Positions 7,875 to 27,926 of a stretch of 40,691 bases of DNA are shown here, piece after piece (position 1 is the stretch's first letter; each line of letters opens with the position of its first letter). Below the pieces are notes generated by a model that was not told where the DNA came from, did not search any database, and worked only from the letters and a program-made list of their open reading frames with translations. The position numbers were made by a program, and so were the translations under genes. The DNA lies in the NCBI GenBank assembly GCA_028718245.1, contig JAQUME010000005.1, forward strand, positions 1 through 40,691, given 5' to 3'. This DNA comes from Candidatus Omnitrophota bacterium (GTDB lineage: Bacteria > Omnitrophota > Gorgyraeia > Gygaellales > Profunditerraquicolaceae).

Positions 7875-7941
7875 GAAATTGGGTCAGAATTATTTATTTA
7901 GCGAGCTACCTCCGTAATAAATAATTTTGACCCACTTTCTC
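7873..7941. repeat. 69-bp palindromic repeat (REP/MITE-like)
   Basis: Two 26-nt arms (7873-7898 and 7916-7941) pair at 24 positions around a 17-nt loop whose tip contains TAGC-GA-GCTA. The arms run from GAGAAA through TGGGTCA and ATTATTTATT. One end abuts the displaced kamA fragment; the other lies 12 nt from the ORF6N stop codon. There is no T-run, so it is not a typical terminator. It resembles non-autonomous palindromic elements mobilised by Y1/REP-associated transposases, but none is in the window. Confidence 0.75.
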
Positions 7942-7953
7942 AAAAAGGATACC

Positions 7954-8682: not shown

Positions 8683-8728
8683 AATTACTCCAGGTAAGTA
8701 TAGATCTTGCCCTTGTAATTACGCAGGA
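8683..8728 (-). repeat. kamA 3' end, intact partner of the displaced 46-bp copy
   Basis: This is the functional end of kamA. It pairs with 7829-7874 as direct repeats whose starts are 854 bp apart, flanking the ORF6N gene and the palindrome. A direct repeat that recreates the gene's 3' end is the geometry left by integrative elements that insert into gene ends, or by a partial tandem duplication. Confidence 0.8.
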
Positions 8729-12071: not shown

Positions 12072-12995
12072 TCATAAGTCCGGCTGGAAAATATTCCGGC
12101 GGTTAAGGAATATCTTTATAACATTCCTTCGGAAGAGAAAAACATAGGCCCAGGCGCATAGATCATAGAGCGCGATGGGAAGAAGATGGGCAAGGAGGCC
12201 GAAGAAACTTTCATTCTTCAGTATGCTAAGATAGCGGTTTTTGATCAACTCGCTGTGCAGCCGGTCATCCAGATACCTGCGGCAGATAGGTTTGCCTAAA
12301 CCGGAATCGGGCCGCCATGACCCGCCGCGCACATGGAAGGCCTTTGCCTGCGGGATATAATATGCCTGCCAGGCGCGCTTATGCGCCCTCCAGGAAATAT
12401 CCAGGTCTTCGTAAAACATGCGAAAGCGGGGATCAAAGTAATTTCCGTCCCTCCTGATATCCTCCAGCATGCTCTTACGGTAAAAAGCTAGTGAGCCGCT
12501 TACGCCGAAGATAAAGCCCGCGTCTTCAAACTGCCCTCTGTCCGGCTTTCCATACCCTCTTTCTTTGGCTGTACGCCAAACGGTTAAAAATAACCCTGTA
12601 GAGTCTAAAGTCGATCCATCCGGACGCAGGATCTTGCCGCTTACCATTCCTATCGAATCTTTTATTGAAAAGCCTCTAATCGCTTCTCCGATAAATTCCT
12701 TGTCCAGAGATACGTCATCATTGAGACAAAGGATGTATTCACCGGAGCTTAGTTGTATACCCTTGTTCAACGAGGGGCCGTAGTATAAATTCCGGGGGCT
12801 GGTGTATAATTTTATGAAAGGAAAAAGTCCGCTCATCCCGGCGGAAAAATCCGCATCAAGAGAATTGTCAATTACGATCACCTCCGTAAGAGGATAACTT
12901 TGCCGCTTAACGGAATCAAGACAGCCCCGCAAATAATCCTTTGAGCCGAAGGTTACGATGATAATACTGACAAGCTTATCAGAGTTGGCCATCAC
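12072..12995 (-). CDS. GT2-family glycosyltransferase (rhamnosyltransferase-like)
   Basis: The 307-aa protein is a GT-A fold family 2 enzyme that transfers a sugar from a nucleotide donor to a surface glycan. It starts SIIIVTFGSKDYL and has EVIVIDNSLD. Its DxD-type metal site is YILCLNDDVSLD, and the acceptor-side ED motif is FRMFYEDLDISWRAHK. A C-terminal hydrophobic stretch (about 264-292, LLAHLLPIALYDLC) probably anchors it in the membrane. It is the last gene of the 20.6 kb glycan locus, overlapping the B12 radical SAM gene by 4 nt. The donor sugar cannot be told. Confidence 0.88.
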   Translation of the reverse strand: MMANSDKLVSIIIVTFGSKDYLRGCLDSVKRQSYPLTEVIVIDNSLDADFSAGMSGLFPFIKLYTSPRNLYYGPSLNKGIQLSSGEYILCLNDDVSLDKEFIGEAIRGFSIKDSIGMVSGKILRPDGSTLDSTGLFLTVWRTAKERGYGKPDRGQFEDAGFIFGVSGSLAFYRKSMLEDIRRDGNYFDPRFRMFYEDLDISWRAHKRAWQAYYIPQAKAFHVRGGSWRPDSGLGKPICRRYLDDRLHSELIKNRYLSILKNESFFGLLAHLLPIALYDLCAWAYVFLFRRNVIKIFLNRRNIFQPDL

Positions 12996-14350
12996 AGCCC
13001 TCTTCCCCCGGAAGAAAAGAAGCTCTTGACCTTCTCCAAATCCAGGGCATCCAGTTCTTCCGTGCGGCAGATATATTTATTATTGCCGTCGTAATCAGGC
13101 CAGTTTGCGGATAGCAGGCTGCCCTTTCCCTCCAAATCTCTGAAGAATTCGGTGCCCGGGAATGGGGTGGCCAGGGAAAACTGCAGGGAGTCAGGCTTTG
13201 TCCGGCCGATAAAATCAATACTCTCCTGAATTGACTGTTTTGTTTCCCCGGGCAGGCCCAGGCAGAATGTCAAATGCACCTTGATACCCAAATCTTTCGT
13301 ATATTTGATCATTTTCTCGGCATGGAGCAGGTCCATTTCCTTTTTACAGAGTTTTAAAACTTTGCTATCCGCCGATTCAATCCCGTATTTAAGCGCGTAT
13401 AAACCTGCGCCCGCCATGGAGCGCAGCAGTTCTTCTTCCATAAGATCGGCCCTGGCCATCGCTGCCCAGGGGATTTTTATCCCTCTTCTCTTGATCCCGT
13501 CGCAAATTCCTAAAACATGGGCTTTATCAATATTAAAGGTGTCGTCGTCAAAATATACGGCTTTAAAATTGAATTCCCTGATGAGCCGTTCCATCTCCTT
13601 AACGACATCTTCCGGATTTCTCTTCCTGTATTTACGCTCCCCGTACATTACCTGCGGCCAAAGACAGAAGATGCACTGATAGGGGCAGCCCCGGCTTGAC
13701 CACATTTGGACGTTAGGAACGGGCAGGCCGGCGAAACCATCGTTATACCTGTAAATATCGGGGAGCTGCCTCTCTGGATAAGGCAGGTCATCCAGGTTTT
13801 CTATCGTCGGCCTTGGCTTATTAACCAGGATATCTTCATTGTCCCTGTAGGCCAGACCTAGAACAGGCCTTAGGTTGCCGGAACCACCCAATTCCTTTGC
13901 CAAGCTTAATAAGGTATATTCATACTCCCCCATCAAAATAAAATCTATATAATCATGTCTGCCCAAAATATCTTTTGCGTAGGTAGTGGCATGCGGTCCG
14001 CATAGGGCTGTCCTGGAATATGGATTTTTTCGCTTTATTTCATAAGCAAGCCTGATATCGTTATCAAAAGAGGGGGTTGAGGTTTCTATAACTATGAGAC
14101 CCGGGCCGGCTGCCTTAATTTCATCCATGACTCTTTGTTCATCCAGGCGCCCGGCTATGGCATCAATTAATTTTACATCTTTATTATTACTCTTCAAAAG
14201 GGAGGCCGAGTAGGCAAGAAAAAAAGGGAAGGGTATGTACTTTATATAATTGTTTTCTTCTGCTTCAGATGTGAATGGCCAGCGCGAACCGGCCCTTACC
14301 CCCCAGCGGTTATTTGCGCGCCAGGGAAGATTTAACAATATTGTGCGCAT
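12992..14350 (-). CDS. B12-binding-type radical SAM protein
   Basis: The 452-aa protein combines an N-terminal Rossmann-like B12-binding-type domain (about 1-160; VKLIDAIAG, LIVIETSTPSFDND, TALCGPHATTYA, FILMGEYEYTL) with a radical SAM barrel. The cluster motif is C222-PYQC-IFC229 after WSSRG. Other core motifs are YFDDDTFNID and LKYGIESADSKVL, then FCLGLPGET. The DxHxxG cobalamin-ligand motif is absent, as in many members of this family, so cobalamin may bind without a protein His ligand. Such proteins perform methylations and ring rearrangements; the substrate is unknown. It overlaps the upstream gene by one base (TAATG) and the GT2 gene by four. Confidence 0.85.
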   Translation of the reverse strand: MRTILLNLPWRANNRWGVRAGSRWPFTSEAEENNYIKYIPFPFFLAYSASLLKSNNKDVKLIDAIAGRLDEQRVMDEIKAAGPGLIVIETSTPSFDNDIRLAYEIKRKNPYSRTALCGPHATTYAKDILGRHDYIDFILMGEYEYTLLSLAKELGGSGNLRPVLGLAYRDNEDILVNKPRPTIENLDDLPYPERQLPDIYRYNDGFAGLPVPNVQMWSSRGCPYQCIFCLWPQVMYGERKYRKRNPEDVVKEMERLIREFNFKAVYFDDDTFNIDKAHVLGICDGIKRRGIKIPWAAMARADLMEEELLRSMAGAGLYALKYGIESADSKVLKLCKKEMDLLHAEKMIKYTKDLGIKVHLTFCLGLPGETKQSIQESIDFIGRTKPDSLQFSLATPFPGTEFFRDLEGKGSLLSANWPDYDGNNKYICRTEELDALDLEKVKSFFSSGGRGL

Positions 14351-14826
14351 TATTTCTTTAAATCCAGGTGCCTCTCGATCTTCTCAAAGAAATCCCTGAT
14401 CTGGTGGATATTCTGGTTCATATCCCTGGAATCGCAGTTCATCTGGTTAAAGTTATCTCTTACGGCTCGCAGCTCCTCAACTATAGACTGAAGATTCCGG
14501 ATAAGGGCTTCATTGCGGGCATCTGCTGATTCTCTTGCTTGTCTGAATGAATCCTGTATATCCTTCAATGAATTCTGTGTAGCCCTTAATGAATTCTGCA
14601 TATCTCCCCTTATATCAAATATCATCTGCCCGATATTGGCAAACATCCTTATTAAAGCTGCCAGGAACAGACTGCCTGCCAAGATCAGGAATCCATAAAT
14701 AAGGGAGGCAGGATCCCTGTATCTGAACATGAACCATGCGCTTGCGGCAATGCCGCAGACCGGGGCCAGGTAAGAAAAACCCAGCAGGATTATTGTAATC
14801 GGCATTTTGTCGGCGATCTTTATCAT
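14350..14826 (-). CDS. Small two-helix membrane protein with long cytoplasmic coiled coil
   Basis: I do not recognise this family. The 158-aa product has two predicted membrane helices (about 10-32, ITIILLGFSYLAPVCG; and 42-62, LIYGFLILAGSLFLAALI). A long Gln/Asn/Arg-rich helical region follows (about 70-158) with loosely repeating units such as MQNSLRATQNSLKDIQDSFR. It sits in the middle of the glycan/radical SAM operon between a GT2 and a B12 radical SAM gene and overlaps the latter by one base. A scaffold or chain-length/export accessory role is possible but is only guessed from topology and position. Confidence 0.7.
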   Translation of the reverse strand: MIKIADKMPITIILLGFSYLAPVCGIAASAWFMFRYRDPASLIYGFLILAGSLFLAALIRMFANIGQMIFDIRGDMQNSLRATQNSLKDIQDSFRQARESADARNEALIRNLQSIVEELRAVRDNFNQMNCDSRDMNQNIHQIRDFFEKIERHLDLKK

Positions 14827-14841
14827 TTAGTCCTCCTTAAG

Positions 14842-16149
14842 TTACGAAATAGCCCGGTCAGTTCCCCTGGCTGAGTTTTCAATTAACTTGATTACCCCCG
14901 GGAAGCGGCTTACCAGGCTTTCTACGTAAGATCTGAAAGTGACCGATAAAATCTCCAGAAACTCGCCATTGAGATGGACCTGTTTTTTCTTGATCAGCCC
15001 GCTCCAATCCCGGTGCAACTGAGAAAGATTAAATAACCTGCCCAGCAGCCGGTCATCCTGTATTTTATAAACGGAAAAAAGTAAATGCCTGTGCAAGGTT
15101 TTATTAAATTCCTTATCGCTGAATCTTGCCTCCAAGAAAACGGATAAAAGCAAACCCAGGGCAAAGAGATTCTGCTGAAGGATATTTTCCTTCGGAGAGA
15201 AACTGGAGATATCTTTTTTTGAGCGATCGAAGTGGTAAAAAAAGGTTATGTCCAACAGGGATATCCAAAAGGATGCCCTGGGAAATTCAGGCCTGCCAAA
15301 ATCCTCCTGCCTGCCAATAGAACTAAAATAATCAAGATCCCTCAAAGAGTGGTGCAGGGCCAGCAAAAGATCCAGATAGATCAATTCATATTTCTTGTTT
15401 TCCAGGTCTTCTTCCAAAAAACGGTTAGCCAATCCGATATTATCCTTGATCTTAAGGGCAAAACTTTGGGCATCCCTGTAAAATCCCTCTTTTATATAAA
15501 AGGCATGATTCCATCTCCAGAAATTATTCAGCAAAGAAAATAGGTCATCTTTTTTCAGGTGCCCGGCGGTGGCCTGCGGCTCGTATATCAGATCGTAGCC
15601 AATTTTCCTCAGGCGGCCGGAAATATCCACATCTTCGAAGTTGCTCCTGTATTTCTCATCGAACAACCCCGCCGAAACCAGCGCTTCCCTGCGGAATAAA
15701 GTATTGGAGCCGAACAAAAATGGAGGGTTGGTCTTCCCGGCCTCTCCCCAGTGCTGCCCCATGTGCAGCGAGCGCCAGATGTCAAAGACGCTGGAGGCAC
15801 CGGATTCCAGAACCTTTCCGCCCGCTGCGGCCACATTCGATGAATCAATTCTTTCAGCCAGATTCTTCAACCAATCCTTATCCGGCAGGCAGTCAGAGTC
15901 CAGAAAAGCAATGAGCTCGGAGCCGGTATTTTTGATGGCGGTATTCCTTGCCGCCGCCAACCCCATATTTCCGGCATGCCTGATTATCCTTACCGGGAAC
16001 CTCCCGGCGATCTGAACGGTCATATCGGTTGAGCCGTCGTCGATAACCAGTATATCATCCGGCCGGGTACTCTGATGAAATACCCCACCCAAGCAAGCAG
16101 CCAGGGTATTCTCTGAATTAAAACAGGGGATACAGAGGGAGATTCTCAT
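14842..16149 (-). CDS. GT2-family glycosyltransferase with helical C-terminal extension
   Basis: The N-terminal roughly 230 residues form a family 2 glycosyltransferase: RISLCIPCFNSENTLAACL, DILVIDDGSTDMT, LAAARNTAIKN, the DxD site LIAFLDSDCLPD and the ED motif RSNFEDVDISGRLRKIG. About 200 further residues are mostly helical and resemble no domain I know. They have aromatic clusters such as WISLLDITFFYHFD and may form an acceptor-binding or oligomerisation region. The start overlaps the upstream SPASM-type gene by 4 nt (ATGA). A tract of charged and hydrophobic residues at 330-360 may be a membrane-associated helix. Confidence 0.86.
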   Translation of the reverse strand: MRISLCIPCFNSENTLAACLGGVFHQSTRPDDILVIDDGSTDMTVQIAGRFPVRIIRHAGNMGLAAARNTAIKNTGSELIAFLDSDCLPDKDWLKNLAERIDSSNVAAAGGKVLESGASSVFDIWRSLHMGQHWGEAGKTNPPFLFGSNTLFRREALVSAGLFDEKYRSNFEDVDISGRLRKIGYDLIYEPQATAGHLKKDDLFSLLNNFWRWNHAFYIKEGFYRDAQSFALKIKDNIGLANRFLEEDLENKKYELIYLDLLLALHHSLRDLDYFSSIGRQEDFGRPEFPRASFWISLLDITFFYHFDRSKKDISSFSPKENILQQNLFALGLLLSVFLEARFSDKEFNKTLHRHLLFSVYKIQDDRLLGRLFNLSQLHRDWSGLIKKKQVHLNGEFLEILSVTFRSYVESLVSRFPGVIKLIENSARGTDRAIS

Positions 16150-17378
16150 AGCGAGCGGATCTCTTTTTCTAATTTTGTTTTTAACCTGCTGATCTCTAAA
16201 AGGGCCATTTCTTTCTCGTCGCCGCCGGTTTTTTCCGGCCCCTGGAGTTTATTTAAAATACGGGAAAGCCTTCTTTTTAGCAGGTTGGTCACCGAGCCCC
16301 TGTAAGAAGCGTAGAACCTGTACCTTAATTTCATTGTTGTCGCCTGGCTTTTCAAAAGCTGCCCGGCCTTATTGGCCAGCCTTTGGTAACTGGCGATCTT
16401 TTTTACCTTTTTAGCTTTATCCAATAGGTAGGCTTTTGAGAGACGGCTGCCAAAAACCTCATCATAGCAGCTCATTAGGCAGCCGCTGCATCCGTTATTG
16501 ACAATAGAGTTGACCATCTTCATTCTCTTTCCAGAGAGCCATAATTCATACAAGCCTTCTTCCCTGATATTGCCGATCAGCTTGTTATTTGCCGCTTCTA
16601 TCCAGCAGGGGAATACATCACCGTTTGAAGCAATGGGGCAGGAGTACCAAAGGGCAGCGCAATTACGGGGATGGGATCTCCGTCCGGCTAAATACGCGGG
16701 TATCTTGCGCAGATAACTTTCCGGATTAACGGAAATTTTGTATTCTTTGGAGACGCTGATAAACCTCCCGATCAGGCCCTCCATCTTCTGGATATCCGCT
16801 TCATCTATGAAAAATCCTGCGCCGGAAGCGCGATCCTTCAGGAAGATCAGGTTAAAAGGCTGCAATCTTACGGTGGTGGACCCGTAATTCTTAGCTACTT
16901 CTAAAATATAAGGCAGCTCTTTATAATTATACCTTGATACGGTTGAAGCCACGGTAGATTCTATTCTTTGGCTCCTGAGGTTCTCCAGGGCAGAAAGCGC
17001 CTTCTCAAAACTGCCCTCACCTCTCAAATGATCATGCGTCCCTTTGCTTCCCTCTATAGAAATATTCACCACATTGACGCCGGATGCGCTTAGCCGGGAT
17101 GCAGCCTGGCTATCGATCAAACAGCCGTTTGAAGTAAGGCAGGCATTCAGCTTATTCTTCCTCGTGAAATAAATGAGCTCAAAGATATCCTCTCTTAAAA
17201 GCGGCTCCCCACCGCTGAAAACTATGGTTTGGCTGCCTAATCTGGAGGCGTCACTGATCACTTTCTTCCATTGATCGGTGGGCAATTCCTCGGATTTTCC
17301 GCCGGGGATATCGCACATCCTGCAGCGTAAATTGCACCTGTTGGTAATGGAGATAATGACTTCCTTAAGGTTTGGCAT
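16146..17378 (-). CDS. Radical SAM protein with SPASM-like C-terminal cysteine cluster
   Basis: The 410-aa protein has the cluster motif C15-NLRC-RMC22 (ITNRCNLRCRMCDIPGG) and SAM-binding VFSGGEPLLREDI. Typical beta-strand motifs LTSNGCLI and VNISIEGS follow. The C-terminal Cys residues (SCPIASNGDVFPC, then NGCSGCLMSC) are a SPASM/twitch-type auxiliary-cluster region. The last about 100 residues are very basic and helical (SYRGSVTNLLKRRLSRI), then end in a short coiled coil. SPASM proteins mature peptides, dehydrogenate alcohols or modify sugars and cofactors; no precursor peptide gene is present here. The start overlaps the upstream radical SAM gene by 14 nt. Confidence 0.88.
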   Translation of the reverse strand: MPNLKEVIISITNRCNLRCRMCDIPGGKSEELPTDQWKKVISDASRLGSQTIVFSGGEPLLREDIFELIYFTRKNKLNACLTSNGCLIDSQAASRLSASGVNVVNISIEGSKGTHDHLRGEGSFEKALSALENLRSQRIESTVASTVSRYNYKELPYILEVAKNYGSTTVRLQPFNLIFLKDRASGAGFFIDEADIQKMEGLIGRFISVSKEYKISVNPESYLRKIPAYLAGRRSHPRNCAALWYSCPIASNGDVFPCWIEAANNKLIGNIREEGLYELWLSGKRMKMVNSIVNNGCSGCLMSCYDEVFGSRLSKAYLLDKAKKVKKIASYQRLANKAGQLLKSQATTMKLRYRFYASYRGSVTNLLKRRLSRILNKLQGPEKTGGDEKEMALLEISRLKTKLEKEIRSL

Positions 17379-18516
17379 TTTTCAGCAAACTTTCATAATC
17401 CGTCAGCCTGGACAAAGCGGCATCCAGTAGTTCCTTTTTTTCTTGCCGGCCGGAGCTGTATTTTCTTACTTCATAAATAAAAGTATCTACGATACCGGAT
17501 AATGAATCCGCCTCAGGATGGGACCAGCAGGTCTGCAGGCAGGGCTTGCGGCAGTTTTTCATCAGGCCCCTTGCCCGGTCAGCCTCCGGGGTATCAAGGC
17601 AGGCTTCAAGATCCATATTTCTTATATTGCCAAAAGCCGCTCCGCAGCTCCTTACCTCCCCATCCGGGCCGATGTTTATAAAAACAAACGGGTTGCATGA
17701 CCACTCCTGGCTGGTCAACTGGCCGTTAAAATGCCTGAGCCATAAATAAGGGTCATGTAAAAATGCCACTAAACCGTTTTTCTTCTGGTAATCCACGATC
17801 CTGTCTATCTGTCCTTTAAGTATCTTGACCTCCTCCTCTTGCAGCCAGAAGCGCGCGCTGGAGGAGGTATTCTGCATATCCTCCTGAGCCACGATCACCG
17901 GGTGATAAACCAGGCATTCAACCCCCAACTCCCTGGCCACAGAGATGATATCAAACAGTTCTCCCACATTTTCCTTCATAATGGTAGTCCATACCGATAT
18001 CTGGGGGCCGCCGCGGTTATCCCGCTTTGCGGCCACAAGATGCTTCAACGCTTCTGTCGCTTTCCTGAACGCGCCTTTTTCTCTTATGTAATCATGGGTC
18101 TGTTCCCCGGCTCCGTCCAAAGAGACGGCTATGTTCTTCAGCCCTGAAGCCATTATTTTTCCTGCTACGGCCCGGTCGATCAATGAGCCGTTGGTAACCG
18201 CCTCGATATTCAGGTTTGCCTCCCGCGCGTATCGGAATATTTCAAAAATGTCCTTCCTTAAAAACGGCTCTCCTCCGGTGATAACCACTGTGAAATCCCG
18301 CTGCCAGCCGGATATTTCATTAAAAGCCTTCTTAACGTCTTCGGTGTTCAGCTCGTATCCTTTGAGTATTTTCACTACCCCGCACATCTGGCAATTATAG
18401 GTGCATTGGTGGCTTAAGCTGATGAATATCCATAGAGGTTTAGCCAGCCTCTTGTTTAAAACCCGGGAAAAATAATAACTTAAGTTTGTTTCAAATTTTT
18501 TAAATGCTTCCGTCAT
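17365..18516 (-). CDS. Radical SAM protein with SPASM/twitch-like C-terminus
   Basis: The 383-aa protein begins with about 30 residues before the barrel. It then has the cluster motif C38-TYNC-QMC45 (SLSHQCTYNCQMCG), VVITGGEPFLRKDI, EAVTNGSLID and NIAVSLDGAGEQTHDYI. The C-terminus carries WSCNPFVFINIGPDGEVRSC and then KNCRKPCLQTCW, a Cys arrangement for an auxiliary iron-sulphur cluster. It resembles the 377-aa and GT2-fused radical SAM proteins of this locus, which share the RKCRFPCLQWC / AACAKPCLLPC ending, so they appear to be paralogues from local duplication. The start overlaps the upstream gene by 17 nt. Confidence 0.88.
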   Translation of the reverse strand: MTEAFKKFETNLSYYFSRVLNKRLAKPLWIFISLSHQCTYNCQMCGVVKILKGYELNTEDVKKAFNEISGWQRDFTVVITGGEPFLRKDIFEIFRYAREANLNIEAVTNGSLIDRAVAGKIMASGLKNIAVSLDGAGEQTHDYIREKGAFRKATEALKHLVAAKRDNRGGPQISVWTTIMKENVGELFDIISVARELGVECLVYHPVIVAQEDMQNTSSSARFWLQEEEVKILKGQIDRIVDYQKKNGLVAFLHDPYLWLRHFNGQLTSQEWSCNPFVFINIGPDGEVRSCGAAFGNIRNMDLEACLDTPEADRARGLMKNCRKPCLQTCWSHPEADSLSGIVDTFIYEVRKYSSGRQEKKELLDAALSRLTDYESLLKNAKP

Positions 18517-19921
18517 CGCCTACCTGCCTTACTATTCCGTAATCCCTGCTTATTTTATTCTCTATTTTTTCCAGATACCGCAGCCGGGAATTCCTAAGCT
18601 CAAAGTTATTGCAACCGTCCTGCGAATTCCACAGCCCCAGATGCGGACCGTCCAGGACAATCCCGAATTCATCCTTATGCTTCTGCAGGTAAGAAAACTG
18701 GTTGATAGTCAGGGTGCTGAAGGTATTCTTTTTTATTAATTTGCGGTGCCCGGAGATAAAATCCGCGGTTCTCTTGAAGTCTTCATCGGTTTCCCCCGGG
18801 AAGCCCACGATCCAGTTTGCCACTATCTCTATCCCGGCGCGGCTGCATTCCCAGATAAAAATGCTTGCCTCCTCCCTGCTAAAACCCTTATGCATCATCT
18901 TCAGGATCTTATTCGAGGCGCTCTCCAGGCCCAAGATCAGATATTCACAGCCTGACCTGCGCATTTTCTTCAACAGCTGCCGGTCGAACCGCTTATCAAC
19001 CCGGCAATTCCCTCCCCAGTTGATACCGACCCTCTTGGCGATAAGCAGCTCGCATAACCTCACAAAATTATCGTAATTACCGTTGACCAACGAGTCGTTA
19101 AAGCTAACGAACCTGTTGCGGTATTCCTGGCGCAGACGCATGATCTCGGCGACGACATTTTGGGCGCTGCGGCAGCGGTAATTTATCCAGAAATAGGTAT
19201 CGGTGCAAAAGACGCAGCGCATTACGCATCCCCGGCTGGTAATTACCGGCAGCGATGACCTGTCCGTGTAGGCGCTCAAATCATAGGCCGCGAAGTCAGG
19301 ATCCGGCAATTCATCCAGGTTGGTTATGGAGCTGGCAAGGCCGTTAAATACCCATCTTCCCTCTTTGGGGGTTACTGTGCCGGGCAAGCCATCCAGGGTA
19401 ATCCCGGCTTCAATCCGCCTGAGGATATCCAGCAGGGTATTTTCCCCTTCCCCGATCACGATAATATCGGCATATTCTTCCAGCCCGTGATGAAGCTTAA
19501 AATCCGTATCCTCTCCGGAAATGTTATAACAGTTCGGACCGCCCAGGATTATCCTCTGAGAGGGTTTTCTTAGTTTTATCCTCTTGATGATCTCCAGGGT
19601 GAACAGGACGGATGTGTTCTGGACGGAAAAACCCAGGATATCGCTGTTACAGGACAGTATCCTGTTAACGCAATCTTCATAATATTGCTCATCGATAAAG
19701 GGGAGTTTCTTGAAAGGCTCAATCAAATACCAGTGATAGCCGCTGGAACTATCCCAATACAGCCTGTCTTTTTCATTCCTCTTGCCATAGAGGACAATAT
19801 TCAAATCCAAAAGCTCGACGCTATGGCCGTTCTTTTTCAGACATGAGCTTAAATACGCCAGGCCCAGACCGGGCATGGCTGTCCCGAAGGCGCAGGGGCA
19901 TTGGACGAGTGCGATCTTCAT
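18500..19921 (-). CDS. B12-binding-type radical SAM protein
   Basis: I use the ATG at 19921, giving 473 aa, rather than the track start at 19939. It forms TGATG with the previous stop, and GAGG lies 9 nt upstream. The N-terminal domain (MKIALVQCPCAFGTAMPGLG, then VELLDLNI, ILGFSVQNTS, IILGGPNCY, IIVIGEGENTLL) is the B12-binding type, with no DxHxxG motif. The barrel has SRGCVMRCVFCTDTYF (C232, C236, C239), FVSFNDSLVNG, YLILGLESASNKIL and WIVGFPGETDEDF. It is a close structural paralogue of the next gene upstream. Substrate is unknown; the context suggests a glycan or lipid carrier. Confidence 0.86.
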   Translation of the reverse strand: MKIALVQCPCAFGTAMPGLGLAYLSSCLKKNGHSVELLDLNIVLYGKRNEKDRLYWDSSSGYHWYLIEPFKKLPFIDEQYYEDCVNRILSCNSDILGFSVQNTSVLFTLEIIKRIKLRKPSQRIILGGPNCYNISGEDTDFKLHHGLEEYADIIVIGEGENTLLDILRRIEAGITLDGLPGTVTPKEGRWVFNGLASSITNLDELPDPDFAAYDLSAYTDRSSLPVITSRGCVMRCVFCTDTYFWINYRCRSAQNVVAEIMRLRQEYRNRFVSFNDSLVNGNYDNFVRLCELLIAKRVGINWGGNCRVDKRFDRQLLKKMRRSGCEYLILGLESASNKILKMMHKGFSREEASIFIWECSRAGIEIVANWIVGFPGETDEDFKRTADFISGHRKLIKKNTFSTLTINQFSYLQKHKDEFGIVLDGPHLGLWNSQDGCNNFELRNSRLRYLEKIENKISRDYGIVRQVGDDGSI

Positions 19922-21360
19922 CAGTATTGCACCTCGCATTGATAGTGCTTATGCAGTTCTCTTGCCAGGCTGCGGAAACGCTGGAGCCTACTTTTCCTTA
20001 TCTCCGGAGTGCTCTGCCGGTTATGCCAGCCGTCTTCCTTGAAAATAATCCCGTATTTATCCACATTAAGACCGAGGTAAGAATCCTCTTCAATGTGGCA
20101 GCCGGTTACCTGGTCAAAACAATATATGAACCTGGCGTTTTCTCTGATAAAATCAAGTGTGCGCTGAAAATCATCCTCGGTCTCCGTAGGATAACCTATG
20201 AGAAAGAAGCAGTTCGCCTGGATACCCGCCCTCCAGGTATCCCGGATTATCTTTTTGGCTTCCTCGATATCATTGTTCTTATGCATTTCCTTTAAGACGG
20301 CCGCTGAGCCGCTCTCAACCCCATAGGCAAGGCTGGTGCAGCCTGCTTTTTTCATTTTTTCAAGCAACCTATAATCCATGCCTTTGCTCAAAGTCGCCTT
20401 GGCAGACCACCTGATATCAAGTTTAGAGCCTATGATCAGGTCGCATATGGCAGCCACCCGCTTGATATCGCCGTTAAAAGTTGAATCCATGATCTCAAAT
20501 TCATTCTTATGGTATTTCTCAACAATATGCCTGATCTCTTTGATCACCCTCTCGGCAGAGCAATAACGGTATATCTTCCATAGAGGGCTGTCGGCGCAAA
20601 AGGCGCAACGGTTGATGCATCCTCTGCTGGTTACCAGCGGCATTGAAGCTCGCTTATAGCCGGCAAGCTGATAATCGTCATAATCGGCGCAGGGGAGCAT
20701 ATCCAGGTCTTTCAATAAACCTCTGGGCTTATTCGCTGTCACTTTCCCATTCTCCGCGTATAGGGCCCCGTCAATAGAATGAAAATCTTTACCCTGGCCC
20801 AGAAGAGAATGGAGCTCCACTAATGCCTCCTCGCCTTCCCCGTCAAGCAGGATATCAAAATAACCGCCGGTAATAATATTCCGGTCAAGAGCGGCAAATC
20901 TCCTTATGCCGTCGGCCATTACCCTTTTGATCCTGGTTGCCTCCGGCCCGCCGCCGATAATTATCAACTCCGGATCTTTCTTTTTCAGCTCTTTAGTCAA
21001 AAGCAGGCTTACCATATAACTGGACATGAAGAGGGAAAATCCCACTACCCTCGGCTTTTGGCTGAGGATCTGACCGGCCCACTTGTCGATAAAAGGACTT
21101 AAAAATAACAGGACATGTTTCTCAAAAAGCACGGGGTCGGTAAAATATTCGGGATAATTCAAATCCCAGTAATTCTTATCGGAAAAATCTTTATACAGGT
21201 CAAAACTGAAATCAAAACACTTAACCCTTATTCCCTTCTGTTTCAAATATCCCTTCAAATAACTTATACCTACCGGCGGTTGGTCTATCCCCCAGGCCGG
21301 GCACATTATCAGGGCGATATCCAGATCATAATCAGCGTTTTGTGGTGAATCGGCGTTCAT
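19921..21360 (-). CDS. B12-binding-type radical SAM protein
   Basis: The track gives 500 aa from 21423, but that start overlaps the preceding gene by 62 nt. I prefer the internal ATG at 21360, one base after the upstream TAA, giving 479 aa; neither has a clear SD. The N-terminal domain (DIALIMCPAWGIDQPPVG, VVGFSLFMSSYM, LIIIGGGPEATR, ILLDGEGEEALV) is B12-binding-type and the barrel has TSRGCINRCAFCADSP (C248, C252, C255), FEIMDSTFNGD, LAYGVESGSAAVL and FLIGYPTETEDDF. With 18500-19921 it forms a tandem pair with identical layout, which suggests duplication and perhaps successive modifications on one substrate. Confidence 0.85.
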   Translation of the reverse strand: MNADSPQNADYDLDIALIMCPAWGIDQPPVGISYLKGYLKQKGIRVKCFDFSFDLYKDFSDKNYWDLNYPEYFTDPVLFEKHVLLFLSPFIDKWAGQILSQKPRVVGFSLFMSSYMVSLLLTKELKKKDPELIIIGGGPEATRIKRVMADGIRRFAALDRNIITGGYFDILLDGEGEEALVELHSLLGQGKDFHSIDGALYAENGKVTANKPRGLLKDLDMLPCADYDDYQLAGYKRASMPLVTSRGCINRCAFCADSPLWKIYRYCSAERVIKEIRHIVEKYHKNEFEIMDSTFNGDIKRVAAICDLIIGSKLDIRWSAKATLSKGMDYRLLEKMKKAGCTSLAYGVESGSAAVLKEMHKNNDIEEAKKIIRDTWRAGIQANCFFLIGYPTETEDDFQRTLDFIRENARFIYCFDQVTGCHIEEDSYLGLNVDKYGIIFKEDGWHNRQSTPEIRKSRLQRFRSLARELHKHYQCEVQY

Positions 21361-21361
21361 C

Positions 21362-22495
21362 TTATCGGCGTTTTTTAAATAAGCGTTCTTTTTCAAATAT
21401 ACCCGCAAACTCAATAAACTCATCCCGGTAAGAGCACCATTGGAGGCAGGGAAAGCGGCATTTTCTGATCAAACCCCTGTAATCCCTTGCTTTCTTTGAG
21501 AACCACAGCGATTTCAAGCTGTCTTTTGAGACATCCCCGAATGTCGCCTCGCTGTTTTCCTGTTCCACGCAAAAATAAACCTTCCCCTCCTGAACAACCT
21601 GCAGGCGGTTATACCCCGCGTAACATGGCATTTTCCAGCCCCTCATCTTCCCCCGGAAATAACTTTTCATTAATTCAAGATTGCCGGCGCTATTGGCGAT
21701 GAAATCAAAATTTGCTTCGCTTGATCGCTTGAATTTCACCAGGCTGTCTATCGCACTATCTAAAATCTTGTATCTTTCTTCCGGGATAAAAGTCGGGCGG
21801 CTGGAGTCCCTGATCCTTTGATCGGTGTTATTGGCGACTACCGGCTGTAATATTATCCTGGATATCTTTATTTTTCTGCACAAAGTTACTATATCCATTA
21901 ATTCTTCTATGTTCTGGTCCATAATCGTGCAAACAGAGCATATGTTGGGATAAGGTTTATTTTCTTTGGTTTTCATGGCATTAATCAGGTCGATATTACC
22001 TATTATCTTCTGCAATACATTCTCGCCCCTTATTTTAGCAAAGCTGCCTTCAGAAGCGGCATCGATAGATACGCTGAAGTTTAGATTATCTAATTTATAG
22101 TCAAATATCTTCTGTATCAGTTCCCTGGTAAAGAGAGTGCCGTTGGTCACTATAGTAATACCCTGCATGCCGCACTCCTTGCCGAAAGCCGCTAATTCCA
22201 ATATCTTCGGTTCCAGGAAGGGCTCCCCGCCGATCAAAATTAACGACTTGATCCCCATTTCACCGGCTTCCCTTATTAAGTTTTCCATGACCGCAATGTT
22301 CAATTCATAGGGCTTATTCCGGGACTTAAAAGACCGGGATAAATCATGCATGCTGCACATCTTGCATCTTAAATTACACCGAAAGGTAAAATTAATTTGT
22401 ATGCAATCGGGGGGGATCAATGGGTAGTCGATCTTACGTGAAAGCCAGAAAAGCAATCCCTTTTTTATAAGTTGGATTTTTCTCTTGTTATTCAT
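21362..22495 (-). CDS. Radical SAM protein with SPASM-like C-terminus
   Basis: The 377-aa protein has NFTFRCNLRCKMCSM (C40, C44, C47), ILIGGEPFLEPKIL, ITIVTNGTL and FSVSIDAASEGSFAKIRGEN. The C-terminal cysteines are MPCYAGYNRLQVVQEGKVYFC and RKCRFPCLQWC. It is similar along its length to the radical SAM half of the neighbouring GT2 fusion; both share the phrases SLVKFKRSSEANF / ELIGFKRDNFSLL and LMKSYFRGKM / LVKKYFRGTL. Gene duplication followed by fusion or fission is therefore likely. A 9-nt gap separates it from that gene. The substrate is unknown. Confidence 0.88.
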   Translation of the reverse strand: MNNKRKIQLIKKGLLFWLSRKIDYPLIPPDCIQINFTFRCNLRCKMCSMHDLSRSFKSRNKPYELNIAVMENLIREAGEMGIKSLILIGGEPFLEPKILELAAFGKECGMQGITIVTNGTLFTRELIQKIFDYKLDNLNFSVSIDAASEGSFAKIRGENVLQKIIGNIDLINAMKTKENKPYPNICSVCTIMDQNIEELMDIVTLCRKIKISRIILQPVVANNTDQRIRDSSRPTFIPEERYKILDSAIDSLVKFKRSSEANFDFIANSAGNLELMKSYFRGKMRGWKMPCYAGYNRLQVVQEGKVYFCVEQENSEATFGDVSKDSLKSLWFSKKARDYRGLIRKCRFPCLQWCSYRDEFIEFAGIFEKERLFKKRR

Positions 22496-22504
22496 AACTT
22501 CCCC

Positions 22505-24418
22505 TTAATCGCAAAAACAAGGCAAAAGGCAGGGTTTAGCGCATGCCGCAACCCTCTTTCTTGCCCGCTGGCTGGCCTTTGATTCAAATATTTTCCTTAA
22601 TCCGTTTTTACGGATATTACCGTAACTCTCAAAACAGGTGGTCACCTCGCCATTATTAGCGATAAGCATGGTCTTGGTTATATAATGGCACTTCACATCG
22701 TCACTGGAAAGGGTGCCGCGGAAATATTTCTTTACGAGATTCAGGTTCTGCTCCGAATTACGCAACAGACTGAAATTGTCCCTTTTAAACCCGATTAATT
22801 CATCCACCACTTTATCCAAAACAGCCAGCCTGTTTTGCGGTACCCAGTATTTAACCCCCGTTTCCCTTTCCCTCATGACCAAATTATTGGAAAGCAGCGG
22901 CTGAAGCTGAATGGAATTAACGTTCAGGGATTTTAAAAAATTAACCAGGTCAATTAGCTCTTCCAGGTTTTCATTCAAGATTATAGATATTACATTAAAA
23001 TTTATATTTGGGTAGCTCTTTTTTAACGCGGAAAGCGATTTTAATCCGCCGCGGGTTTTTTCAAAACATCCCCGGGAACCCCGGATATCATCGTGGAGGC
23101 CGGGGGTCATCGCGTCAAGGGATATGCTTAATGACAACGACTTAGCCGCGAAATAGGGCAATAATCTTTTAATCAGCGTTTCATCCAGCTTAATGCCGTT
23201 AGTCAGTATCCCGACAGAGTAATTCCTGGCTTTCACAAAATCCAGTATGTCAAATATATCCTCCCTCAAGAGCGGCTCTCCTCCGGATAGAACAAACTCC
23301 TTTACGCCCCATTCTATAGCCTGATCAATAATGCCCTTTACCTCATCCAGGGTATATTCCTCTATCTTCCTGTCTTTTCTGATCTCGCAAATATTGCACC
23401 TGAGATTGCACCTATGGGTAATATCTAAAATTATGTATTCGGGTTTAAGGCCGGTTTCTTTTGTATCCTCCCCCCGGATTAAATCAGACATTTTTAGCGC
23501 GCGCATATGCTCCGCTATGTTGCCCGCTAAATACATTATTTTATGCAATGCAAAATAAACATACACCTGGAATTTTTGAAAAGGTTTAAGGCCGGCGTAA
23601 AATTTAATAAGCCGCCTGCCTGAAATAAAGGAGAACCTTGGGGCCTTAATAAGATTTACGATAAGCCCGAAGGCAAAAATGGCGCTGTTTGCGGTCTTTA
23701 TTTCCTGCAACAAAGGATGGTCTTGATGCATATGCTGGACCAGATAATTCCCTCTCCCGTACATATATGCCTGCCTTAAGAAAGAAATAAAATCCGTGTG
23801 GCAATCATGGCGTACTTTTATATCTTGCCTGTGGATGAACCTGTCCCCCTTCTTAAATAGACGCCAAAAGAAATCCAGGTCTTCTCCAGCTGGCAAAGGG
23901 AATAATTCGTTAAAGCCTTTAGCAAGATAATCCCGTTTAAAAGACACATTGCAGGTAGGAAAGAATATAGTATTGTCTTCTCCCTTTATCCGGACATTTA
24001 TCGCTCCGTCGCTTAATGATTGGCTGACCATCGCCTTGATATTACGCCTGTCAACATAAGTTTCTCCTCCGATCGCCGCGATATGCTGCTCTGCCCTATG
24101 CGCCGTGACCATCCCCTTAACCCACCCCCTATCCAGGAGGCAATCAGAGTCCGTGAAACCGATTATCCGCCCTTGCGCGTGTTTTATGCCTAAATTCCTG
24201 GCCGCTGCCGGCCCTTTATGAGCCTGGATAAAATATTTTAAATTGGGATTTGTTTTAGAAAGCTCCACGAGCATATCTCCGGTGCCGTCGCTGGACCCAT
24301 CATCTATTACAATGATCTCAAAAGAATTTTTGGCGTAATCCTGACCGGATAAGGAATCCAGGCAGGCCTTAAGTTTGGACTTTCGGTTGTATGCGGGAAT
24401 TATTATAGATATATCCAT
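22505..24418 (-). CDS. Fusion of GT2 glycosyltransferase and radical SAM/SPASM-like domain
   Basis: The 637-aa protein has two complete enzyme modules. Residues 1-230 are a GT2 glycosyltransferase: MDISIIIPAYNRKSKLKACL, IIVIDDGSSDGTGDML, AAARNLGIKHA, the DxD site GFTDSDC (D90, D92) and GEDLDFFWRL. Residues 240-310 are a linker with a hydrophobic patch. From about 326 a radical SAM barrel follows: DITHRCNLRCNICEI (C337, C341, C344), FVLSGGEPLLRED, GILTNGIKLD and LSISLDAMTPGLHDDI. The end carries VKCHYITKTMLIANNGEVTTC and AACAKPCLLPCFCD. No stop or frameshift signal lies between the halves. The ATG follows the ABC ATPase stop with no gap (TAAATG). The two activities probably act on the same carrier-linked sugar. 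Confidence 0.9.
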   Translation of the reverse strand: MDISIIIPAYNRKSKLKACLDSLSGQDYAKNSFEIIVIDDGSSDGTGDMLVELSKTNPNLKYFIQAHKGPAAARNLGIKHAQGRIIGFTDSDCLLDRGWVKGMVTAHRAEQHIAAIGGETYVDRRNIKAMVSQSLSDGAINVRIKGEDNTIFFPTCNVSFKRDYLAKGFNELFPLPAGEDLDFFWRLFKKGDRFIHRQDIKVRHDCHTDFISFLRQAYMYGRGNYLVQHMHQDHPLLQEIKTANSAIFAFGLIVNLIKAPRFSFISGRRLIKFYAGLKPFQKFQVYVYFALHKIMYLAGNIAEHMRALKMSDLIRGEDTKETGLKPEYIILDITHRCNLRCNICEIRKDRKIEEYTLDEVKGIIDQAIEWGVKEFVLSGGEPLLREDIFDILDFVKARNYSVGILTNGIKLDETLIKRLLPYFAAKSLSLSISLDAMTPGLHDDIRGSRGCFEKTRGGLKSLSALKKSYPNINFNVISIILNENLEELIDLVNFLKSLNVNSIQLQPLLSNNLVMRERETGVKYWVPQNRLAVLDKVVDELIGFKRDNFSLLRNSEQNLNLVKKYFRGTLSSDDVKCHYITKTMLIANNGEVTTCFESYGNIRKNGLRKIFESKASQRARKRVAACAKPCLLPCFCD

Positions 24419-27133
24419 TTATGTGTCTTGTATAGCCAGGATACCGGAAAAATAAGGGTATTTGCCCGGCAAGAAATTTATTTTTGAAGAAGACGCGTAT
24501 TGCAGTATCCTGCCGCGGTGATAAATGTCTGAATTCATTATTTTAAGACGCCATTGCGGATTTGATTCCTGGAGGCGCAAAGAGAGCCCCGGCAAATTAC
24601 GCGCGGGATCCTCCCTCAAACCGATAACCCGGTCATCTTCCTTCCCTCTCCACAAACAATCCCAGCTATCGTCGGTTTCGCCTGAAAATTCAGGGAAGGC
24701 CCCCTCCTCCCGGCCCCCTATCCAGCGGGAAAATCTCTCGGAAGACATAATGTTTGCCTGAAGACAATCTAATGTGATCTCCTTTTCTACGCCCAGAACC
24801 ACCTGCCAGGAAAAGATCCCGTTGTCCCTAAGGAGGATCTCCCACTCTTGAGATAAAGGCAGATCCAGCCATCTGCCAAAAATCCTCAGTTTCTTCCCGT
24901 CATTATAGACGACCTTCCAAATGGCAGCGGAGAAGGAATCATGCCAGCGCTTCTGTGAGCGTATTGAAGTGTAAAGCGCGATATTCTTGGTAAGCTCGCT
25001 CCCGTTTTTATAAAACCGCCCGCTTCCTTTATCAAATACCAATTTGATATCCTTATTTTCAATGGTGTTATCAAAGATATCCGCGCGCACCGTATTATTT
25101 TTACCAAAAACAAACCTTGCCTTGAAACATTCGTGCCTGCCGGGAGAAAACACCATATTCTCCTCCGGCTCAACCTTCTCCACGTGTAAAAGCCTTGCCT
25201 TGCTATAAAAATCGGAATTAAAAACTTTCACGAAATTATCCAATTTTTCTGAAAAGAACAAAGATACTCTGGGCAGCTTACCTGCGCGGTCGCTCAGCTC
25301 TGCCGGGCCCAGCCAAACGCATCTTTGCAGGAGGTCAACTTCTCGGTCGGTAAATTTGTCGCTGAATTCTCCAGAAGCGAACTCGCTGAAAAAAAGCTTA
25401 AAATCCCCGGGGAAAAAACACCGCAGGCGCTGCTGCTGGATAGCCGTATCCCGATCTACCTCCAGGTCAACATCCCAAGTAAAAGAAGAATCATCGCATA
25501 TATTGATCTGCCATATTTGACGGATCCCGAAATTATCCCAGCTTCCGCGGGCAGTCATTTTACTCTCGGACTCTTTTTCCAATTTCCAACGGCCTGAATC
25601 CGAAGAATGCCATCTCTGTTGCGCAAAGAACGCCGAATGCATGTGCTCCGCTTTGGTCAGGGGGATATTATCGAAAAAGAGCCTAATCCTGCCCTTATCA
25701 AATGCCAGTTTCAGCCTGCCGTTTGATATGGCGGATTCATTTTGCATTCTGGAGATGTGGCCGTTTATATCCCCTATACCAACTATTATTTTGCCGGAAA
25801 AACAGCTGATCCTGCCGGTTTGATCCGGGACTGCGGCGATGAGGGGAACGGCTTTGAACTGCAATATGCGCCCCGGGTTAAAATAATCGGAATTGGATAT
25901 GGAGCCCTGGACCGGATATTTCAAGGGCGGGTTTTCAAACAGCAAAACAGGCAGTTCTCCTGAAGCCGAATCCTGCTGATATACCCCGATGCAGACAGCT
26001 GTTCCGTTTTTGGAAAATACGGGCATCCAGCTCTTATCCTCTTCTTTTATATCCGGGAAGTCTCCGGCATCCTGATCAAGAACCCACTTATTATACCCCT
26101 TATCAAGGAAAGCATTAAAGTATACTTCCGGCAGCGGGGCTTCTTTTTCCGGCTCGATTTCCATATCCCAGCTGATCTCATTATCATCGCTTACCCGGAG
26201 GCTCCATATCTGAGTAAGCCCCAGATGGGGAAATTTACCTGTCGCCATAAGCATTCCTGCGGTATCCCGCAGTTCCCATTCTGCCTGGCTGGAATTATAC
26301 CACCTGCCGGAGAGCCCAAATGCGGTATAAATCCCCGAAGGAGCGGTGATTTGGTTTCCTTTCCAGTTCAATAATACCCGGCCGTTATTGAATACCAGGC
26401 TTAGATCTTTTTTCCTGATAATAGCGCTTCCCTTTGGGCTGCCCAGCGCCTGCGAATAAAAAGATGTGGTCTTGGAAGCATTCCCGTCGCTGACCATCAT
26501 CCCGTTTTTCAGGAATATCGCTCTTTTGCACAATTTCTGCAGCAAAGCCAAGTCGTGGGTAACAATGACCACCGTCTTGCCGCTCTCCTTTAGCTTGAAT
26601 ATTTCTTTGATGCACTTTTTCTGGAAATATTCATCCCCCACCGACAGCGTGTCATCGATAAGAAAAATGTCGGGGTCCATGTGTATTGCTATGGCGAAAG
26701 CCAAGCGCACGAACATGCCCTGCGAATAGCACTTTACCGGTGCGTCTATGAACTTGCCGATCTCGGCAAAATCAACGATCTTCCGGTGCCCCTTATCGAT
26801 CTCTTCGCGGCTTAAGCCGAAAAGCTCCGACTGCAGGAAAATATTCTCCCTTCCGGTAAGCTCGGGCTGAAAGCCCGCGCCCAATTCCAGAAGCCCGGCT
26901 ACCCTTCCGGAGACATTTACCTGCCCCCGGTCCGGGTTTAACATCCCGGCGATCAATTTCAAGACAGTAGACTTTCCCGCGCCATTCTCTCCGATTATCC
27001 CCAGCGTTTCCCCTTTTTCCATGGAGAAGCTGACTCCCCGCAGGGCCCAGAAATTCTGCCAGGAGGCCTTACCTTCAATAATAAACTTGATACGGTACAT
27101 CTCCCAGGCATCCTGAAATTTGATTATAGGCAT
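24419..27133 (-). CDS. Wzt-like polysaccharide ABC exporter ATPase with triplicated C-terminal domain
   Basis: The first about 235 residues are the nucleotide-binding domain of an ABC-2 glycan exporter: Walker A GENGAGKST (48-56), Q-loop LELGAGFQPELTGREN, signature CYSQGMFVRLA, Walker B IFLIDD (156-161) and H-loop VTHD. The usual catalytic Glu after Walker B is Asp161. The remaining 670 residues are unlike the usual 150-residue Wzt carbohydrate-binding tail. They form three repeats of about 205 aa (about 244-452, 474-677, 696-902). Each has an RW-x3-S-x5-W motif, then QIW/QEW, SWD or its variant, and NSD-x-Y-x3-R-x-L near the end. These are probably three beta-sandwich ligand-binding domains that select the glycan. 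The start is one base after the permease stop. Confidence 0.88.
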   Translation of the reverse strand: MPIIKFQDAWEMYRIKFIIEGKASWQNFWALRGVSFSMEKGETLGIIGENGAGKSTVLKLIAGMLNPDRGQVNVSGRVAGLLELGAGFQPELTGRENIFLQSELFGLSREEIDKGHRKIVDFAEIGKFIDAPVKCYSQGMFVRLAFAIAIHMDPDIFLIDDTLSVGDEYFQKKCIKEIFKLKESGKTVVIVTHDLALLQKLCKRAIFLKNGMMVSDGNASKTTSFYSQALGSPKGSAIIRKKDLSLVFNNGRVLLNWKGNQITAPSGIYTAFGLSGRWYNSSQAEWELRDTAGMLMATGKFPHLGLTQIWSLRVSDDNEISWDMEIEPEKEAPLPEVYFNAFLDKGYNKWVLDQDAGDFPDIKEEDKSWMPVFSKNGTAVCIGVYQQDSASGELPVLLFENPPLKYPVQGSISNSDYFNPGRILQFKAVPLIAAVPDQTGRISCFSGKIIVGIGDINGHISRMQNESAISNGRLKLAFDKGRIRLFFDNIPLTKAEHMHSAFFAQQRWHSSDSGRWKLEKESESKMTARGSWDNFGIRQIWQINICDDSSFTWDVDLEVDRDTAIQQQRLRCFFPGDFKLFFSEFASGEFSDKFTDREVDLLQRCVWLGPAELSDRAGKLPRVSLFFSEKLDNFVKVFNSDFYSKARLLHVEKVEPEENMVFSPGRHECFKARFVFGKNNTVRADIFDNTIENKDIKLVFDKGSGRFYKNGSELTKNIALYTSIRSQKRWHDSFSAAIWKVVYNDGKKLRIFGRWLDLPLSQEWEILLRDNGIFSWQVVLGVEKEITLDCLQANIMSSERFSRWIGGREEGAFPEFSGETDDSWDCLWRGKEDDRVIGLREDPARNLPGLSLRLQESNPQWRLKIMNSDIYHRGRILQYASSSKINFLPGKYPYFSGILAIQDT

Positions 27134-27134
27134 A

Positions 27135-27926
27135 TTAAATACGTTTTAAAACCATAGACTCGAGGCGGACCGACACCGCCAGACCGATAAACAAACTCGC
27201 GAAAGCCAGGCAGGTAACCCATAAGAATACCGCTGGCCCGGGCATCCTGCCGTAAAAGACAATCTCCCGGTAACAGAAAATAAACGGGGAAACCGGGTTT
27301 AAATTGAATACCCAGCGGAATTGTTCCGGGACCATCTCCACGGAATAAAAAACAGGGGTCACCCAAAACCAAAACATAAGCAGGATGCCCAGCAGATGCT
27401 CCAGGTCGCGCAAGATTATGTTGACTACGCTGAACAATAAGCCGACCCCGCAGGTAAAGAAATAGGTCAACAAAAAAAGGGGCGGCAGCAAAAAAGCCGC
27501 CGGGAGGATCCCGGGGTTACGTAAAAAGAATACCGGCAATACTATGCACCAACTTATAAGAAAATTCATAAAATAAGACAGCATAGAACTCAAAGGCAGT
27601 ATCTCTTTCGGCAGGCTGAACTGGTGGAGGACGCTTTTCTGGGCCAATAAAGAAGGGTTGGCTTCGGATACGGCCGAGGAAAAGAACATCCACGGTAAAA
27701 TACCGGAGAGGATAAATAAAGCAAAATCCTTTACCTCTGTCCTGAAAACAGCGGTGAATACAAAGGTGATCACCAATACCATCAAAAGTGGATTTATTAT
27801 CACCCAGAAAAGCCCTAAAACAGACCCGGCATACTTAGCCCTGAATTGCTTCCATGACATTCCCCATAAAGAGCGGCGGTAGGAATATATTTTCTGGAGT
27901 CTTATTATAATTGATCTCATGAACAT
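27135..27926 (-). CDS. ABC-2 type polysaccharide exporter permease (Wzm/TagG-like)
   Basis: The 263-aa membrane protein has six predicted helices. The N-terminal amphipathic interface helix YSYRRSLWGMSWKQFRAKYA and GLFWVIINPLLMVLVI are typical of ABC-2 permeases that export lipid-linked O-antigen, teichoic acid or capsule. Also visible are FILSGILPWMFFSSAV and FWFWVTPVFYSVEMVP. It would pair with the adjacent ATPase to flip a finished glycan across the inner membrane. The start ATG has a CCGGGGATACGG context; a second in-frame ATG lies two codons on. Confidence 0.92.
   Translation of the reverse strand: MFMRSIIIRLQKIYSYRRSLWGMSWKQFRAKYAGSVLGLFWVIINPLLMVLVITFVFTAVFRTEVKDFALFILSGILPWMFFSSAVSEANPSLLAQKSVLHQFSLPKEILPLSSMLSYFMNFLISWCIVLPVFFLRNPGILPAAFLLPPLFLLTYFFTCGVGLLFSVVNIILRDLEHLLGILLMFWFWVTPVFYSVEMVPEQFRWVFNLNPVSPFIFCYREIVFYGRMPGPAVFLWVTCLAFASLFIGLAVSVRLESMVLKRI

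Follow-up and report, generated by a model that had tools for sequence, protein, structure and literature searches.

Much is known of how radical S-adenosylmethionine (SAM) enzymes act on peptides, on cofactors and on small antibiotics. In O9a systems, Wzt accepts the modified chain through its own C-terminal domain. HpnJ, a radical SAM enzyme, finishes a route that starts with the transfer of a sugar to a lipid by a glycosyltransferase, and it acts on the sugar, not on the hopane skeleton (PMC12583986). AprD4 acts together with AprD3 to deoxygenate paromamine, removing one hydroxyl group (PMC5461906). We analysed a 40,691-nt stretch of DNA (the window) from a Candidatus Omnitrophota bacterium (contig JAQUME010000005.1), in which an earlier note had pointed to radical SAM domains interleaved with family 2 glycosyltransferases (GT2) at 12072-24418. 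These genes belong to a larger cassette (12072-32703) that also encodes an ATP-binding cassette (ABC) exporter. We consider it likely that the cassette makes, radically remodels and exports a polyprenyl-linked glycan, with the radical SAM enzymes acting on carrier-linked sugars and a repeated domain of the export ATPase, here called KC, recognising the chain.

Seven radical SAM enzymes in one cassette

The open reading frames (ORFs) of the cassette are lettered A to P:

A, 12072..12995, minus strand: GT2 glycosyltransferase (PF00535 6.5e-21), final gene of the block; adjoins M in the related genome G007
B, 12992..14350, minus strand: B12-binding radical SAM enzyme (PF04055 2.4e-19, PF02310 2.8e-9), the signature enzyme of the whole system
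C, 14350..14826, minus strand: two transmembrane helices, variable coiled coil and conserved tail (sequence features)
D, 14842..16149, minus strand: GT2 glycosyltransferase (PF00535 2.4e-33)
E, 16146..17378, minus strand: radical SAM/SPASM enzyme (PF04055 1.5e-24, SPASM 4e-8)
F, 17365..18516, minus strand: radical SAM enzyme with a five-cysteine, SPASM-like C-terminus (Pfam Radical_SAM, cysteine pattern)
G, 18500..19939, minus strand: B12-binding radical SAM enzyme (Pfam, NCBIfam)
H, 19921..21423, minus strand: B12-binding radical SAM enzyme (Pfam, NCBIfam); the true start probably lies ~20-33 codons inside the ORF, as homologs align from residue 34
I, 21362..22495, minus strand: radical SAM/SPASM enzyme (Pfam)
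J, 22505..24418, minus strand: fusion of GT2, radical SAM and SPASM (PF00535 2e-32, PF04055 2.2e-23, SPASM 4.8e-6; model pLDDT 83)
K, 24419..27133, minus strand: Wzt/TagH-type export ATPase of 904 aa with three C-terminal KC domains (PF00005 1.7e-20)
KC copy 1 of K, 25727..26407, minus strand: internal repeat, approximate boundary
KC copy 2 of K, 25049..25726, minus strand: internal repeat, approximate boundary
KC copy 3 of K, 24422..25048, minus strand: internal repeat, approximate boundary
L, 27135..27926, minus strand: ABC-2 permease, Wzm/TagG-like (PF01061 4.8e-13)
M, 27942..29267, minus strand: TPR protein (Pfam)
N, 29261..30565, minus strand: flavoprotein, homolog of UDP-galactopyranose mutase (UGM) with an altered substrate-binding arginine position (4dsg 9.3e-76)
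O, 30558..31541, minus strand: WecA/MraY-type polyprenyl-phosphate sugar-1-phosphate transferase (PF00953 7.4e-30)
P, 31534..32703, minus strand: GT4 glycosyltransferase (PF00534 4e-39), upstream edge of the insertion

In 12072-24418, Pfam called Radical_SAM in seven proteins and no others (E 1.5e-24 to 1e-18), and the CxxxCxxC motif is intact in all seven domains. Three of the seven (B, G and H) also carry a B12-binding domain, and four (E, F, I and the C-terminal half of J) are without one. With both features present, cobalamin binding is predicted for B, G and H; a cobalamin salvage gene was found in the source genome. SPASM was called by Pfam in E, I and J, and F has a similar C-terminal cysteine pattern, in which C274, C291, C322, C326 and C330 are invariant across seven homologs. 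GT2 domains occur in A, D and the N-terminal half of J (n=3). Protein C starts with two hydrophobic helices, followed by a coiled coil, a middle of variable length and a strongly conserved tail of ~30 residues (consensus NCDSKDxNQNIxQIxxFFEQIERHLDLKK), features that make it a probable membrane scaffold. The module K-P lies upstream of 12072-24418 in the same direction. The inventory of the earlier note, namely three B12-type and four SPASM-like radical SAM domains, three GT2 domains and a two-helix membrane protein behind a glycan start and ABC export module, is thus confirmed.

The source genome encodes 28 radical SAM domains in 1.2 Mb, eight of which are inside the window. At this density, seven in ten genes far exceed chance (P ~7e-10 per 10-gene run, assuming ~1000 genes), and chance clustering was rejected. 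The earlier note had called so many in one export locus unusual; seven is modest for the family described below.

The best NCBIfam model for B is HpnJ (TIGR03471; 278.4 bits, under the equivalog cutoff of 577.6), and the AprD4 model NF033070 matched at 109.7 bits (under the cutoff of 500). The best solved structure for B is AprD4 (6fd2, 7e-35, residues 215-443). For F and for the radical SAM domain of J, the best solved relative is cytosylglucuronate decarboxylase (6e-15 for F). The nearest solved relatives of the radical SAM enzymes are thus mostly sugar-acting (B, F and the radical SAM domain of J). A fold search with the model of J returned GT2 enzymes and SuiB, as its two domains predict, and gave no pointer to a substrate.

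The exporter carries a repeated, predicted beta-domain

The nucleotide-binding domain (NBD) of K matches Aquifex Wzt (8dku, 5.5e-84), and solved Wzt chains align to this domain only. A Wzt-type carbohydrate-binding domain in K was considered and rejected, having no sequence support from solved Wzt chains, the PDB or Pfam. The C-terminal part of K consists instead of three tandem KC domains of ~225 aa with 25-32% mutual identity. KC had no Pfam match and no PDB sequence match. Its model (pLDDT 85) is all-beta, a beta-supersandwich like that of galactose mutarotase and the beta-domains of glycosidases. Tryptophan accounts for nine of the 28 invariant residues of KC, cysteine for none. The modelled fold and the tryptophan content are compatible with glycan binding. 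Elsewhere in the family, export ATPases carry 1-11 copies, the longest being a protein of 2743 aa with eleven (L137, genome G201). Because KC is found on the cytoplasmic ATPase and, in sibling loci, on enzymes, both should recognise the same thing.

Permease L and the Wzt-type ATPase K are encoded together, and a permease is found near the ATPase in 41 of 47 KC loci. The locus has its own WecA-type initiator (O, PF00953), and several sibling loci also have a WecA match. Protein N has the flavoprotein fold and keeps the equivalents of AfUGM R327 and R447; the arginine equivalent to R182 was replaced in 8/8 homologs checked. We take R182, R327 and R447 to be the substrate-binding arginines of UGM. 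The replacement suggests that N may have a substrate other than ordinary UDP-galactose.

The cassette belongs to a wider family

Gene maps of related loci were drawn with a purpose-made ORF picker and profiles, and KC was counted in sampled genomes at an E cutoff of 1e-20. In a GTDB collection of 85,462 species, near-full-length orthologs of J were present on 24 contigs, all but one titled Candidatus Omnitrophota or Omnitrophica and the remaining one titled 'bacterium'. F was present in 14 of 384 sampled Omnitrophota genomes from six families. In loci of the window subtype the gene order is P-O-N-(M)-L-K-J, a variable middle, then F-E-D-C-B-A. The middle differs in the number and kind of radical SAM genes and may contain additional GDSL, PMT_2, methyltransferase, GH44-like and TPR genes. 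Fusions in this subtype join F to a second radical SAM domain (L089), B to SPASM (L052), and B12, GT2 and SPASM in one protein of 1170 aa (L055).

The KC profile matched 70 of the 384 Omnitrophota genomes, and the same module of WecA, UGM-like, permease, NBD-KC (here with 2 to 11 repeats) and radical SAM genes surrounds the matches. Orthologs of B occur alone or fused in 28 further loci (45-58% identity), and the SPASM-type auxiliary-cluster cysteine pattern was found in 126 of the 158 SPASM-type proteins of the loci examined. The arrays range from 3 to ~18 radical SAM genes (the largest in G010 and G077), and single proteins may contain three to four radical SAM motifs (L163 10919-16672, with four motifs in 1917 aa; L138 6463-10785; L147 5395-9681). 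Fusions in sibling loci link KC with the enzymes as KC-B12, B12-KC and KC-SPASM, and in NBD-KC-KC-SPASM (L153) the radical SAM domain is on the exporter ATPase itself.

The association of exporter and enzymes is constant. Sequence of 4 kb or more on one side of the exporter was available for 47 KC-exporter loci, and all of them had radical SAM genes within 10 kb. The same was true for 25 of 26 exporters chosen by KC alone, the exception being a 4.9-kb contig, too short to judge. The latter is the cleaner figure, because some of the 47 loci had been fetched through J. Separation of radical SAM and export genes in most relatives, which the earlier note had named as a result that would speak against its proposal, is therefore not what we observed.

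Outside Omnitrophota, KC was found in a single genome (G463, Desulfobacterota) out of 297 from the phylum of a Deltaproteobacteria record, whereas the 200 genomes sampled from the phylum to which a Clostridia record belongs gave no match. The Desulfobacterota locus is a minimal version with an NBD carrying one KC, a permease, an ortholog of B, a SPASM protein and a GT2 enzyme. Within the three phyla sampled, the cassette is almost only found in Omnitrophota.

The cassette is gained and lost as a block

The extent of the unit was determined by comparison with close relatives. In three genomes of the same genus (G002, G019 and G020), the genes that flank the cassette in the window, a D-Ala-D-Ala-ligase-like gene (window 10871) and a HAD gene (window 32776), adjoin each other, forming an empty site. 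In G007, which has a 91% identical PAC2 neighbour, the same site carries A, M, O and P without N and without the entire stretch from L, K and J to B, and M is directly beside A. The unit is therefore 12072-32703, and the exporter and radical SAM genes were gained or lost as one block. The gene content that the earlier note gave for 12072-24418 stands, but the real unit extends beyond 24418.

Just downstream of the cassette, window 8685-11860 contains two tandem D-Ala-D-Ala-ligase-like ATP-grasp genes and a lysine-2,3-aminomutase-like radical SAM gene (LAM_C domain). Relatives have these genes at the empty site too, and they are possibly a beta-lysine ligation system. Farther on, an ORF6N-domain gene and a Peptidase_S74 (endosialidase chaperone) gene lie beside a low-GC gap (window 6192-8457), suggesting a phage-related remnant.

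Discussion

We propose that the WecA-type transferase O and the glycosyltransferases P, J, D and A would build a polyprenyl-linked chain, for which N may supply or isomerise a sugar. The SPASM-type enzymes E, F, I and J and the B12-binding enzymes B, G and H would then act on the carrier-linked sugars in the cytoplasm. Candidate reactions are epimerisation, dehydration or deoxygenation, ring rearrangement and C-methylation; the B12-binding enzymes may methylate, deoxygenate or rearrange, and epimerisation or dehydration may be the work of the SPASM enzymes. Permease L and ATPase K would export the product. KC of K is the putative glycan reader, a functional counterpart of the carbohydrate-binding domain of Wzt, and the modified chain would be the exported substrate. 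The KC fusions of sibling loci would bring radical SAM enzymes to the same polymer.

Several observations weigh against this proposal. SPASM proteins are mostly peptide-modifying. The trend towards sugar-acting relatives is not uniform, as the best solved matches of E and I are SkfB and MoaA (E is also related to cytosylglucuronate decarboxylase, with SkfB as its best match), and the trend could merely mirror which radical SAM enzymes have been solved. For E, F, I and J there are also matches to several NCBIfam models of peptide maturases, with scores far under cutoff throughout. The fold of KC also occurs in YidC, so that its likeness to sugar-binding domains is at the level of the fold only, and N is without one substrate-binding arginine of UGM. 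The related loci are mainly from fragmented metagenome-assembled genomes (MAGs), several being split over contigs and some pieced together from different contigs of the same genome. G007 is itself a MAG that is 77% complete, and its absent genes may sit on unassembled contigs; the junction of M and A is on one contig.

Among the alternatives, it is unlikely that the radical SAM enzymes act on membrane lipids, with chemistry of the hopanoid or ether-lipid type, and that the transporter moves a glycolipid and not a polymer. B is nearest to HpnJ and is also matched by the ladderane and HpnR models of NCBIfam, and archaeal tetraether lipids are made by radical SAM enzymes (PMC8941075). However, HpnJ itself targets the sugar (PMC12583986), and the combination of WecA, GT4 and several GT2 enzymes with a Wzt-like ATPase bearing a repeated carbohydrate-fold domain argues for a polymer.

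We regard as quite improbable a pathway for a ribosomally synthesized and post-translationally modified peptide (RiPP) or other peptide natural product, in which SPASM and B12-binding enzymes would modify a ribosomal peptide, glycosyltransferases would glycosylate it and the ABC transporter would export it. SPASM domains are typical of RiPP maturases, and the top NCBIfam models of G and H are a RiPP C-methyltransferase and ApyD, both under cutoff. A precursor gene was, however, not found beside the radical SAM genes of the window: the genes of 12072-24418 overlap or are separated by gaps of ≤16 bp, which leaves no room for a precursor ORF, as the earlier note had stated. Pfam reported neither a peptidase nor an RRE domain in the cassette, and the radical SAM genes are accompanied by a WecA-type initiator, a UGM-like gene and a Wzt/Wzm exporter.

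Large-array sibling loci do have conserved small ORFs of 39-50 aa. Searching small ORFs in 60 loci for precursors, we obtained three families common to at least three loci each. The first is an amphipathic peptide gene of ~48 aa (47-49; L096, L097, L099, L101 and L103), the sequence of which is also the N-terminus of KC-B12 proteins. The second, of 39-41 aa, encodes a single membrane helix, mostly ending in FPGG (L095, L098, L136, L140, L145 and L151), and also matches the tail of a B12-binding radical SAM protein in L143. Since both match segments of larger proteins, they are unlike free substrates. The third is a small membrane ORF of ~50-60 aa common to three loci of the window subtype (L032 10505-10687, L038 4614-4769 and L052 14150-14338). 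The conserved adjacent peptide gene that the earlier note had named as contrary evidence was not recognised for the window subtype, and the note's preference for modification of a carrier-linked glycan over a RiPP is supported by the linkage to the exporter and by the failure to find a precursor.

It is very unlikely that the radical SAM enzymes modify one of the system's own proteins (for example C or the repeated KC domains) in place of the glycan. The tail of C is strongly conserved next to a variable middle, and KC is fused to radical SAM domains; yet the large-array loci, the richest in radical SAM genes, gave no recognisable C, no invariant residue of KC is cysteine, and fusion to KC equally fits recruitment to a substrate. 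Generic accretion of radical SAM genes at a polysaccharide locus, by coincidence and with no single shared product, would fit the differing locus middles among relatives but is hardly credible given the constant association over dozens of loci in many families and one Desulfobacterota genome, the presence of KC in both exporter and radical SAM proteins, and the absence of exporter and radical SAM genes as one block from G007.

Assembly, radical remodelling and export of a glycan thus remains the reading we favour. We would go further only tentatively: the cassette may represent an undescribed class of surface-polymer system in bacteria, in which a dedicated, glycan-reading exporter of the Wzt type with tandem KC domains would work with assembly-line-like radical SAM arrays that rewrite carrier-linked sugars sequentially. 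The resulting residues would be heavily deoxygenated, C-methylated or carbocyclic, of kinds not known from bacterial glycans. If the proposal is true, the grouping of 3 to ~18 radical SAM enzymes with a single glycan exporter would give access to a new field within glycan chemistry and to a new route to unusual surface sugars. It would also bear on how Omnitrophota, a phylum still uncultured, build their cell surface. KC provides a concrete handle, being an undescribed domain common to exporter and enzymes, the ligand of which is measurable with purified protein. As a marker of the system, KC also allows further members of the family to be sought in other genomes, and the Desulfobacterota homolog may permit work in an easier organism.

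Comparison with known systems

Our literature searches returned nothing joining Omnitrophota, radical SAM enzymes and glycosyltransferases, and nothing relevant on radical SAM enzymes in O-antigen or polysaccharide loci; papers mentioning Omnitrophota and radical SAM enzymes do not describe such a system. For the radical SAM arrays, KC and the KC fusions we found no published description, whereas initiation and export are of the known ABC-dependent kind.

Among systems with several SPASM radical SAM genes per cassette are SynChlorMet (ScmE/ScmF) and other SPASM peptide maturases. They differ from the present cassette in their exporter and glycosyltransferase context, scores against their models are far under cutoff, and no precursor was seen here. 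Cytosylglucuronate decarboxylase (BlsE/MilG type), the closest solved relative of F and the radical SAM domain of J, is remote and comparable in the radical SAM core only. The apramycin diol dehydratase AprD4, the closest solved relative of B, acts on a pseudodisaccharide; B is far under the cutoff of NF033070, and an AprD3-type reductase was not recognised in the cassette. The hopanoid cyclitol-ether pathway of HpnI, HpnK and HpnJ likewise combines a glycosyltransferase with an HpnJ-type B12-binding radical SAM enzyme, there acting on a lipid-linked amino sugar. In contrast to that pathway, in which HpnJ is defined by a cutoff that B does not reach, the cassette adds WecA, an ABC exporter and many more radical SAM enzymes.

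The overall plan of the cassette is that of Wzm/Wzt O-antigen export (E. coli O9a, Aquifex Wzt 8dku) and of TagGH/TarGH, with WecA-type initiation, cytoplasmic glycosyltransferases, an ABC-2 permease and a Wzt-like NBD followed by a C-terminal beta domain. Unlike in Wzm/Wzt, this C-terminal domain is KC, which is unrelated by sequence and present in 1-11 tandem copies, and the cassette has radical SAM enzymes, either in place of or in addition to a chain-capping kinase or methyltransferase.

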